This document shows positions 12,355 through 14,531 of a stretch of 37,097 nt of DNA, in pieces. The stretch is taken from the NCBI GenBank assembly GCA_003158295.1, contig PMIP01000035.1, forward strand, positions 147 through 37,243. Reading direction: 5' to 3'. Origin of the DNA: Chloroflexota bacterium (GTDB taxonomy: Bacteria > Chloroflexota > Limnocylindria > Limnocylindrales > CSP1-4). A program made the position numbers and the translations under genes. Under the pieces are notes generated by a model, which had not been told where the DNA came from, made no database searches, and saw nothing but the letters and a program-made list of their open reading frames with translations. Within the stretch, counting starts at the first letter, position 1; the number at the start of each line of letters is the position of its first letter.

Positions 12355-13275
12355 ATGCGAATCGTTTCCCTATTCCCCGCGGCCACCGAGATCGTCTGCG
12401 CGCTGGGCTTGCGCGATCGGCTCGTAGGCATGAGCCACGGCTGCGACTTCCCCCCGGAGATAGAGGGCACGGCAGTCGTCACTCGGCCGCGGATCGTCGG
12501 TGACGCGACGGCGTCAAAGTCCGCGGCTTTGGCCGAGGCGACGGTTCCGGGCGAAGAAATGGGCCCTGCGGAGCTGGATCGACCGGCCCTGCTTGCCGCC
12601 CGGCCGGATCTCGTGATCGTTCGCGAGGGCGGGTTCGGACTGGGCGCCGAGGCGGTTCGCGAGGCCTTCGGCGAGGCGGAGACCGCCCCATCGATCATCT
12701 CCCTGGACCCGGTCAGCCTCGAGGGCATCTTTCATGCGATCACCTCGGTCGGGGCCATGGCCGAGACCGAGGACGAAGCGATGGGCTTGGTCGAAATCCT
12801 GCGGGAGGAGATAGGTGCGATCGAGCAGGAGGTCGTGGTGCGGCACGACCAGGGCCTGGCCCCCAGCCGGGTCGTGGTTCTCGAGGCGCTCGAGCCCTTG
12901 CTGGCGAGTGGTCGCTGGGTTCCGGAGCAAGTGCGTCGCGCAGGCGGTTGGGACCTGCTCGGGCGCGAAGGTGAACCCCCATCGCCGACGAGCTGGCAGG
13001 CGGTCCTCGACGTAGATCCCGAGATGCTCATCCTGGCCCCGGCCGGACTCAACCTGCTGCAGACCCAACAGGCCTGGTCTCGGACCCCGAAGCCCGAATT
13101 CTGGGACGAGATCGCGGCCGTGCGGCGAGGCCAGGTCTTCGTCGTGGAGCCCGTCTACTTCTGCCGGCCCGGGCCCAGGGCCGTCGACGGGGTCGGCATG
13201 CTGGCCGAGATCTTCGACCCGGAGGGCTTCGTCGACACCTCACCGCCCAACAGCTGGACACCCCTCTTCGAGTAG
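12355..13275 (+). CDS. Cobalamin-binding-like (BtuF/TroA-fold) protein without signal peptide
   Basis: 306 residues with a periplasmic-binding-protein fold of the BtuF/FhuD type: MRIVSLFPAATEIVCALGLR is the conserved beginning (IVSL.PA.TE...LG), followed by RPDLVIVREG and the C-terminal VEPVYFCRPGPRAVDGVGML. Relatives deliver vitamin B12 or iron chelates to ABC importers. Here the conserved fold starts at residue 1, with no signal peptide or lipobox, and no permease or ATPase gene is adjacent. It is therefore more likely a cytosolic corrinoid-binding or orphan protein than a transport component. The start has a TAGACT box 6 nt upstream, consistent with a leaderless message. Confidence 0.85.
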   Translation: MRIVSLFPAATEIVCALGLRDRLVGMSHGCDFPPEIEGTAVVTRPRIVGDATASKSAALAEATVPGEEMGPAELDRPALLAARPDLVIVREGGFGLGAEAVREAFGEAETAPSIISLDPVSLEGIFHAITSVGAMAETEDEAMGLVEILREEIGAIEQEVVVRHDQGLAPSRVVVLEALEPLLASGRWVPEQVRRAGGWDLLGREGEPPSPTSWQAVLDVDPEMLILAPAGLNLLQTQQAWSRTPKPEFWDEIAAVRRGQVFVVEPVYFCRPGPRAVDGVGMLAEIFDPEGFVDTSPPNSWTPLFE

Positions 13276-13329
13276 CCGGCGGCTCTGTCCCGGCAGGCGG
13301 GCGGCTGCGTCCTACCTCATGCGCGATTC

Positions 13330-13374
13330 TTGACAAGGTCGCGCCCTCATTTCAGGATTTGTTCAGCCTGAACA
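13330..13374 (+). promoter_or_regulatory. Promoter with palindromic operator for a candidate sRNA
   Basis: A perfect -35 TTGACA (13330-13335), a 17-bp spacer and CAGGAT (13353-13358) predict transcription from about 13365. The perfect 15-bp palindrome TGTTCAG-C-CTGAACA (13360-13374) lies over the start site, as expected for a repressor operator. Confidence 0.55.
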
Positions 13375-13480
13375 GTAAATATCTGGGCAGTTACTCCTCC
13401 CTCTCCTCCTCCCTTCCTCCCGCGCAAGACGAGATCACACAGCCGGTCGTCTCCCCCCCTCGACGACCGGCTCTCGTCTG
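13365..13480 (+). ncRNA. Candidate CU-rich small RNA with C7-loop hairpin (6C-RNA-like)
   Basis: From the predicted +1 the RNA would form a small hairpin AGTAA (13374-13378)/TTACT (13391-13395). An unpaired CU tract (13396-13420) with four CCTCC motifs follows. Then comes a long helix AGACGAG (13427-13433) plus AGCCGGTCGTC (13441-13451) pairing with GACGACCGGCT (13462-13472) plus CTCGTCT (13473-13479), with a 7-nt bulge on one side and the loop TCCCCCCCTC. CCUCC equals the anti-Shine-Dalgarno core, so the tract could pair with ribosome-binding sites. C-rich hairpin loops are the hallmark of the actinobacterial 6C RNA, but I cannot confirm membership. Boundaries are estimates. Confidence 0.5.
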
Positions 13481-13576
13481 TCATGGACCGGTTTTGACCG
13501 GCGGAATTGCCTGTCGGTTCGCCCCACAGGGCGCAATTGCGCGCAGGACCGGCCATCACGAGCCTCCTGGCACGCC

Positions 13577-13582
13577 TATACT
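13577..13582 (+). promoter_or_regulatory. -10 box of a leaderless proC transcript
   Basis: TATACT is followed by 7 nt and then ATG 13590; there is no Shine-Dalgarno in between. No -35 consensus is evident. Confidence 0.6.
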
Positions 13583-13589
13583 CGCCCGC

Positions 13590-14531
13590 ATGTCGCCCCT
13601 TTCGAACAGGACCGTGGCCACGATCGGCTCTGGCGTCATGGCCGAGTCGATCATCGCCGGGCTGCTCCGGGGCAAGCTCGTTGGGCCCCGCCAGATCGTC
13701 GGTAGCGAGCCTCGGCCGGAGCGCCGCGAGGAACTCGAAAGTCAGTACGGCGTGCGCATGGTCGCGTCGAACCTGGAGGCGGCGGCCGAGGCGGACGTGA
13801 TCCTGCTATCGGTCAAGCCTCAGACGCTGACCAAGGTCGGCCACGAGCTGGGCGGCCACCTGCGCCCCAACCAGCTGATCGTCTCGATCGTGGCCGGCGC
13901 AACATGCAAGGTCCTGACCAGCCTGCTGAGCCACCGCGAAGTCGTCCGCAGCATGCCCAACACCCCCGCCCAGATCGGGCGCGGCGTCACCGTCTGGTAC
14001 CCAACACCAGAGGTGACCGAAGAGCAGTGCGATCAGGCGAGGGTGCTGCTGCGTGCCCTGGGCACGGAGCTGCAGGTCGAGGACGAGCGGTTCGTGGAGA
14101 TGGCCACGGCGGTCAGCGGAACCGGCCCGGCGTACGTCTTCCTGGTCATGGAGGCGCTCATCGACGCGGCCGTTCACCTGGGCTTTCCTCGCCACATCGC
14201 CCATGACCTTGTGATCGAGACTCTCGAGGGCAGCACGGCCTTTGCCAAGGCAACGGCTCAGCATCCCGCCGTTCTCCGAAACATGGTCACGTCGCCCGGC
14301 GGGACCAGCGCCGCCGCGATTCATGAGCTCGAGTCGGGCCGGCTGCGGACCGTGCTGTCCGAGGCCGTTTGGGCGTCGTACCGTCGGACGATCGAGCTCG
14401 GCGCGGACCTGGAGAAAGGTCTGGGGCTGAACGAGGGTCAGAGCGCCGGGTCGATCGGCGGTGCAACCAACGGCCGCACGGCCGGAGGAGCCCGCTCGAA
14501 GACCTCGACCGGCCGGCGATCCGACCGCTGA
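13590..14531 (+). CDS. proC: Pyrroline-5-carboxylate reductase
   Basis: 313 residues. It catalyses the last step of proline synthesis, NAD(P)H-dependent reduction of pyrroline-5-carboxylate. The Rossmann motif TIGSGVMAES is at about 10-19, SMPNTPAQIGRGVT at about 115-128, and the P5CR signature VTSPGGTSAAAIHELE at about 234-249, which forms the substrate-binding dimer region. The family usually has about 270 residues; the last 40 residues here are a Gly/Arg/Thr-rich tail of no known role. The start at ATG 13590 gives the conserved N-terminus, and the TATACT box points to a leaderless mRNA. It is the first gene of a probable run with PIG-L and S9 genes (1-nt gap, then overlap). Confidence 0.95.
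   Translation: MSPLSNRTVATIGSGVMAESIIAGLLRGKLVGPRQIVGSEPRPERREELESQYGVRMVASNLEAAAEADVILLSVKPQTLTKVGHELGGHLRPNQLIVSIVAGATCKVLTSLLSHREVVRSMPNTPAQIGRGVTVWYPTPEVTEEQCDQARVLLRALGTELQVEDERFVEMATAVSGTGPAYVFLVMEALIDAAVHLGFPRHIAHDLVIETLEGSTAFAKATAQHPAVLRNMVTSPGGTSAAAIHELESGRLRTVLSEAVWASYRRTIELGADLEKGLGLNEGQSAGSIGGATNGRTAGGARSKTSTGRRSDR

Follow-up and report, generated by a model that had tools for sequence, protein, structure and literature searches.

A conserved CCUCC-rich candidate small RNA shares a promoter box with HtrA and MacAB-type loci in a Chloroflexota genus

We describe a candidate small RNA that is conserved throughout a genus of Chloroflexota and folds into a stable hairpin behind a pyrimidine tract with several CCUCC motifs. 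Its promoter box also stands before HtrA-type genes and before MacAB-type operons that encode a response regulator and a histidine kinase, and it occurs in a genome where Shine-Dalgarno (SD)-led and leaderless starts coexist. We therefore favor, as the probable reading, a response regulator-activated small RNA of an HtrA/MacAB-type envelope-stress regulon that masks SD sites. These observations suggest that the cell uses the RNA to turn down selected messages when the envelope is stressed.

Results

A conserved unit of box, −10, CU tract and hairpin

The window, i.e. the whole stretch of DNA that was analyzed, is 37,097 nucleotides long. An earlier note on this sequence had proposed a trans-acting small RNA with anti-SD motifs at 13330-13480, and all of the elements that it named are present in the sequence there (Table 1). 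The region is free of genes, as had been claimed, over a gap of 314 bp from the end of the Peripla_BP_2 gene (13275) to the ATG of proC (13590). Scans of 12900-13900 called neither a consensus sigma-70 promoter nor an intrinsic terminator, and the hairpin of the RNA is without a T-run.

Table 1. Features of the intergenic region and its neighbors, with positions in the window.
Feature	Position	Strand	Remark or basis
Peripla_BP_2 protein gene, upstream neighbor	12355..13275	+	
TTGACA	13330-13335		17 nt, then CAGGAT (13353-13358); sequence inspection
Direct-repeat box TTCAGGATTTGTTCAG (TTCAG repeated at 11 bp)	13351..13366	+	presumed OmpR-type response-regulator site
Perfect 15-bp palindrome TGTTCAGCCTGAACA	13360-13374		sequence inspection
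−10-like hexamer AAATAT	13377..13382	+	10 bp 3′ of box; alignment of 22 promoters
Proposed small RNA, ~90-95 nt	13389..13480	+	homologs in 21/21 genus genomes; alignment A1; 5′ end (13389) predicted from the −10, 3′ limit (~13480) putative
Pyrimidine tract, 28 nt, four CCTCC (anti-SD) motifs	13394..13421	+	
Outer helix, 5′ arm AGACGAG	13427..13433	+	pair analysis of alignment
Inner helix, 5′ arm AGCCGGTCGTC	13441..13451	+	4/11 pairs with a double change in one or more sequences
C-rich loop TCCCCCCCTC	13452..13461	+	CCTCC here in 15/21 homologs
3′ arms GACGACCGGCT and CTCGTCT	13462..13479	+	pair analysis of alignment
TATACT, 7 nt, ATG	13577..13592	+	proC start with a leaderless promoter of its own
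proC (pyrroline-5-carboxylate reductase), downstream neighbor	13590..14531	+	P5CR_dimer 1e-32, F420_oxidored 2.6e-19

When 61 genomes were searched with 13310-13500 as the query, the genome of origin and all 20 other genomes of the same genus gave matches, with best E values between 7e-96 and 1.8e-6; outside the genus, the lowest E value was 0.007. The earlier note had proposed a covariance model from related genomes. Such a model (R1), run on 107 genomes of the family, matched 21/21 genus genomes at E ≤ 4e-15 and, in the genome of origin, a single place at E ≤ 0.1. Outside the genus, R1 gave weak matches (E ≤ 0.1) in 22 genomes of other genera, none above 27.7 bits, and these were not accepted as homologs. 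Thirteen records of the GTDB collection contain a 19-mer of the 3′ arm without mismatch, and 12 of these are 'Chloroflexi bacterium' MAGs (nine of these 'fen' isolates). The Acidobacteria record (L115) was taken as a chance match, as the stretch examined held no CU tract or matching hairpin. One genus genome (G009) carries two copies of the RNA, the second at a contig end; this near-identical copy (L021) was left out of alignment A1 and of the pair counts, which cover 21 of the 22 sequences.

The homologs keep four parts in a fixed order, namely a TTCAGGAnnnnTTCAG-type box, a −10 near GAATAT, the CU tract, and the hairpin AGACGAG...GCCGGTCGC-loop-GCGACCGGC.CTCGTCT. Both the tract, with the four CCTCC motifs that the note had counted in the window, and the 18-bp interrupted helix (7+11 pairs) are kept in 21/21 aligned homologs; each RNA holds two to five CCTCC in its 5′ tract, with at least two in 21/21. 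The C7 loop, by contrast, is present in the window but atypical, because the loop carries CCUCC in 15/21 homologs and that of the window is an exception. The predicted fold of the window RNA (−34.8 kcal/mol, compared to −21.8 ± 3.1 kcal/mol for shuffled sequences; z = −4.2) was equaled by none of 200 shuffles, and it leaves the CU tract open apart from a short stem of 5 bp on the 5′ edge of the tract.

Over the 18 pairs and 21 aligned RNAs, 97.1% of helix cells are paired; four of the 18 pairs show changes on both sides (10 cells) and nine are invariant. None of 500 shuffles reached the covariation score, and slid controls had zero to two double-changed pairs. Nevertheless, we grade the covariation support for the hairpin as only moderate, because two weaker measures, the count of double-changed pairs and the count of pair types, were reached by 10/500 and 355/500 shuffles, respectively. 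The note had named a lack of stem conservation or covariation as grounds against a small RNA; what we found was a conserved stem with moderate covariation. Its central guess is strengthened, the RNA being conserved, structured, and equipped with several CCUCC motifs.

The promoter box is shared with HtrA-type genes and MacAB-type operons

Promoters regulated by the OmpR family carry a direct repeat of ~11 bp immediately 5′ of the −10, and this layout is found at the RNA: TTCAGn6TTCAG is present in 22/22 RNA promoters, followed at nearly fixed spacing by a −10-like hexamer with a genus consensus of ~GAATAT (22 promoters aligned). The exact 11-bp direct repeat, TTCAGGATnnnTTCAG, occurs in 17/22 RNA promoters, with variants in G001, G002, G010, G015, and G016. 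The earlier note had instead read TTGACA-17-CAGGAT as the promoter and had drawn attention to the palindrome over the predicted start. The letters of both are in place, but neither role was upheld, since TTGACA occurs in 2/22 sequences, CAGGAT is part of the direct repeat, and the palindrome is found in 1/22.

Across the 21 genus genomes there are 28 exact copies of TTCAGGATnnnTTCAG, compared to none for the reversed control and one for a spacing one base wider. Seventeen of these boxes are at the RNA, nine precede HtrA-type genes, and two precede an adaptor gene 3′ of HtrA. When one mismatch was allowed, the genome of origin showed four further box-like sites, which were not placed in the regulon. 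A PhoB (phosphate) regulon, a candidate for an 11-bp repeat, was dropped because the genes behind the other exact boxes are HtrA and adaptor/MacB-type genes. Neither htrA combined with a TTCAG repeat nor an MprA box turned up in the literature searched.

Pfam assigned Trypsin_2 to all HtrA proteins that were submitted, i.e. six of the nine box-led ones and the HtrA upstream of the box in the genome of origin (G000); the remaining three box-led proteins were recognized by the motif NPGNSGG. In G000, the order is HtrA, box, an adaptor-like protein, a MacB-type ABC transporter (MacB_PCD, ABC_tran, and FtsX domains), a small secreted-looking protein, and a response regulator with a histidine kinase. 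The adaptor-like protein had no Pfam match, and the label 'MacA-like' rests on its place before MacB. In 5/5 MacAB-type loci that could be followed far enough, the last genes of the operon encode an OmpR-type response regulator and histidine kinase, identified by Pfam in G000 and by sequence motif in G002, G005, G012, and G017; this count leaves out G003, G004, and G014, whose contigs end too early, as well as G010 and G018. The two proteins are in separate frames in G002, G005, G012, and G017. We noted that in G000 (L130, 7284-9524) Response_reg and HisKA/HATPase_c fall in one ORF, with an apparent frameshift in the C-terminal part of the regulator. In G001, the box-led HtrA is of the PDZ type and is without MacAB; a histidine kinase-motif gene and a response regulator-like gene converge on it.

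In 6/6 HtrA-first loci examined, a second TTCAGn6TTCAG precedes the adaptor gene. The adaptor-gene boxes have CATACAT-like −10s at the same spacing, and the −10s at HtrA are weaker. From the shared box and the gene context, we infer that the response regulator of the HtrA-MacAB-type locus is the candidate driver of the RNA. Since the box stands before HtrA and before the MacAB-type operon that encodes the response regulator and histidine kinase, the RNA would belong to an autoregulated envelope/secretion-stress regulon.

The linkage recurs in a second genus

The pattern TTCAGn6TTCAG, 20-45 nt, and CCTCC was found in 37/107 genomes of the family (21/21 in the genus and 16/86 outside it), and its reversed control gave three matches. 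In a second genus (g7), 24 TTCAGGAnnnnTTCAG boxes were found in 7/8 genomes, compared to none for the control. Fifteen of these 24 could be placed: six precede an RNA with a CU-rich 5′ hairpin, five of which have a second hairpin with a C-rich loop; four precede HtrA-motif genes; and five (L188, L201, L203, L207, and L208) precede variants of another strong hairpin, GTCGGGGTGCGGGTGCGCAGGAACGCGCACCCCGAC in L203 and L208. Among the other nine, some resemble HtrA leaders cut by contig ends. The linkage of box, CU-rich RNA, and HtrA is thus repeated in g7. One copy of the g7 RNA (G026) sits inside a long open frame in the gene calls, which we took as a spurious frame arising from GC-rich DNA.

Other C-rich-loop RNAs occur in the same genomes. 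A second RNA family is a double hairpin, GACGCCrGTGACGGGGCGTC followed by the C-rich-loop hairpin CAAGCGGCCyGGG..CCGGGCCGCTTG, and is present in 18/21 genus genomes, 14 of them with two to three places; those in the genome of origin are G000:C82:18264-18448 (−), L210, and G000:C32:63134-63209 (−), L232. An upstream TTCAGn6TTCAG box was seen in 5/25 copies examined, and three of four scanned copies gave sub-threshold ftsZ-DE matches (28.7-36.0 bits; cut-off 72.2). A third C-rich-loop hairpin, of the GCAGCCGGTCGCTCCCCCCTCCGCGACCGGCTGC type, occurs in ten genus genomes (L085, L087, L088, L089, L091-L095, and L100) and follows a TTCAGCrnTTCATCAGGA-like sequence, the strict pattern of which is found in 3/21 genomes. 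In G009 (L086, ~1405-1490), CCTCCTCCTCC is combined with a hairpin with the loop CTCTCCTCCCTGG, and a TPP riboswitch lies downstream; this CCTCC RNA gave a sub-threshold CcsR1 match (29.9 bits, E 0.0012; cut-off 65.3). Lastly, L090, L096, and L099 hold a tandem pair of C-rich-loop hairpins in a 6C-like layout. L096 gave a sub-threshold ar14 match (28.0 bits), and neither L090 nor L096 matched 6C at E ≤ 1.

SD-led and leaderless starts form separate classes

The note had supposed a genome in which many genes look leaderless. We examined 400 kb of the genome of origin (68% G+C) with 263 starts predicted by codon usage. SD 4-mers precede 100 of these starts (25 in the control window), a TANNNT −10 at leaderless distance precedes 37 (control 9), and a single start has both. 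The genome does have leaderless genes, and SD-led and leaderless starts form separate classes. The −10 of leaderless-type genes peaks at −12/−13 in this genome; TATACT-N7-ATG is found at proC in 17/17 loci where the start was found, and on this promoter sequence proC belongs to the leaderless class.

Discussion

Proposed mechanism and predicted pairing

In the mechanism that we propose, an OmpR-family response regulator would bind the 11-bp direct repeat TTCAGGAnnnnTTCAG and activate + strand transcription of the ~90-95-nt RNA, which would be induced upon envelope stress. The CCUCC-rich 5′ tract would then pair with GGAGG-type SD sites on target mRNAs and keep ribosomes from binding, and in most species the CCUCC loop, presented on a stable hairpin, may pair with SD sites as well. 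Leaderless mRNAs such as that of proC would be without the SD site with which the RNA is predicted to pair.

Predicted duplex energies of the tract with the 25 nt before starts fit SD masking, with averages of −15.9 kcal/mol (SD-led genes), −8.7 (leaderless genes), and −10.5 (all others). After shuffling, the CU tract reached −14.9 kcal/mol with SD-led genes, near the value of the true tract, and the two tracts were alike when all 263 genes were taken together (−12.3 kcal/mol each). Because the shuffled tract pairs nearly as well, target specificity beyond 'CU-rich' is not supported, and a ranking of targets by duplex energy was rejected as unspecific. The 16S rRNA gene was found in 0/21 genus assemblies, hence the anti-SD label was not taken from the clade's own 16S.

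Alternative explanations

The shuffled-tract result would also suit an RNA that binds a protein, for example by titrating a CU- or C-binding protein, in place of SD sites. The number of CU motifs drifts between two and five, as in a protein-binding array, and the arms of the hairpin are nearly invariant, which pairing with mRNA would not need. We consider this unlikely, given that the repeat unit is CCUCC, the anti-SD core, which is also displayed in 15/21 loops on a stable stem, and that the CCUCC arrangement resembles that of ar14-type RNAs as far as the available text describes them (PMC10746234). It is most improbable that the hairpin is merely a terminator or a repeat and the CU tract compositional noise. 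Related C-rich-loop hairpins do occur elsewhere in these genomes, but box, −10, tract, and hairpin are retained as one unit in 22/22 sequences, the T-run is missing, the fold stands out from shuffled sequences, and R1 finds one place in the genome of origin.

The position of the element raises a further alternative, namely that it is no free RNA but belongs to proC as a structured 5′ leader or attenuator. proC adjoins the RNA in 21/22 loci (all but the second G009 copy, which lies at a contig end) and starts 95-210 nt past the hairpin in the same direction in the 17 loci measured; the scan of 12900-13900 called no terminator. We set this reading aside because proC has its own conserved leaderless-type promoter in all 17 loci. 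The twofold variation in RNA-proC spacing also argues against it, as do a box that is the one of htrA and of the two-component operon, and comparable RNAs in g7 where the stretch examined had no gene with the proC motif MPNTP. A proC leader is therefore very unlikely in our judgment.

An SD-masking RNA of the envelope-stress regulon is our preferred reading. Whether such RNAs would act as a class-selective switch, in which one or more anti-SD RNAs of a two-component envelope-stress regulon damp SD-led messages while leaderless ones are still translated, is more doubtful, and we offer it as a speculation. If true, the type of leader would decide which messages are heard during stress. The system allows one to test directly whether messages escape an anti-SD RNA according to their leader type, leaderless or SD, and a genome whose two start classes hardly overlap favors that test.

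Comparison with known systems

6C RNAs have two C-rich-loop hairpins. The kinship to 6C that the earlier note had suggested was not borne out, as Rfam gave no 6C match on 13270-13600 at E ≤ 10 and the RNA has one hairpin, not two. The C-rich loop is a likeness to 6C/B11 of Actinobacteria; a single hairpin with a CU tract is the difference. According to the excerpt available for B11, it has two C-rich-loop hairpins, and an mRNA whose 5′ UTR holds a six-G tract is repressed as long as one of the two loops is intact but no longer when both are mutated (PMC10470900).

The best Rfam match of the same region was ar14 (RF02344), at 23.2 bits (E 0.017) and below the gathering score of 58.8. Of two relatives, L017 scored 26.0 bits and L008 had no ar14 match at E ≤ 1; among four g7 RNAs, two scored 32.8 and 24.8 bits and two gave none. 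Like the ar14/NfeR1 (cuckoo-type) RNAs of Alphaproteobacteria, the RNA carries several CCUCC-type anti-SD motifs in unpaired regions (the tract in 21/21 homologs and the loop in 15/21). In the accessible part of its description, ar14 has three hairpins, and every one of them holds CCUCCUCCC in an unpaired region (PMC10746234), whereas here there is one conserved hairpin and an open tract, in another phylum and under other promoter control.

CcsR1-4 of Rhodobacter are likewise small RNAs, which Rfam names for a conserved CCUCCUCCC motif and for induction by stress. Membership in CcsR (RF02791) was rejected, as the window region gave no match at E ≤ 10. In the passages available, CcsRs and the DUF1127 gene ccaF1 are transcribed together, and the promoter is of the RpoHI/RpoHII type (PMC10253847); here the upstream gene matches Peripla_BP_2 only (E ≤ 1e-5), and the RNA has a separate promoter with a direct-repeat box.

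In its wiring of protease and two-component system, the regulon resembles the secretion-stress systems CutRS/CssRS (Streptomyces), described in the main text of one paper as two-component systems that control HtrA proteases (PMC12802291). CutR binds TAWATAAA, in place of which we found the TTCAG repeat, and the main text nowhere uses the term 'sRNA' (PMC12802291). A literature search found no description of a CCUCC/anti-SD small RNA in Chloroflexi. The Chloroflexi-1 RNA from Chloroflexus aggregans has been named, in a text whose available portion is without CCUCC or Shine-Dalgarno (PMC2864571).

We class the RNA with the anti-SD small RNAs but outside the named families, set apart from them by the Rfam cut-offs and by their descriptions. 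It looks like an independent invention of the ar14/CcsR anti-SD strategy, tied here to a two-component protease/efflux regulon.
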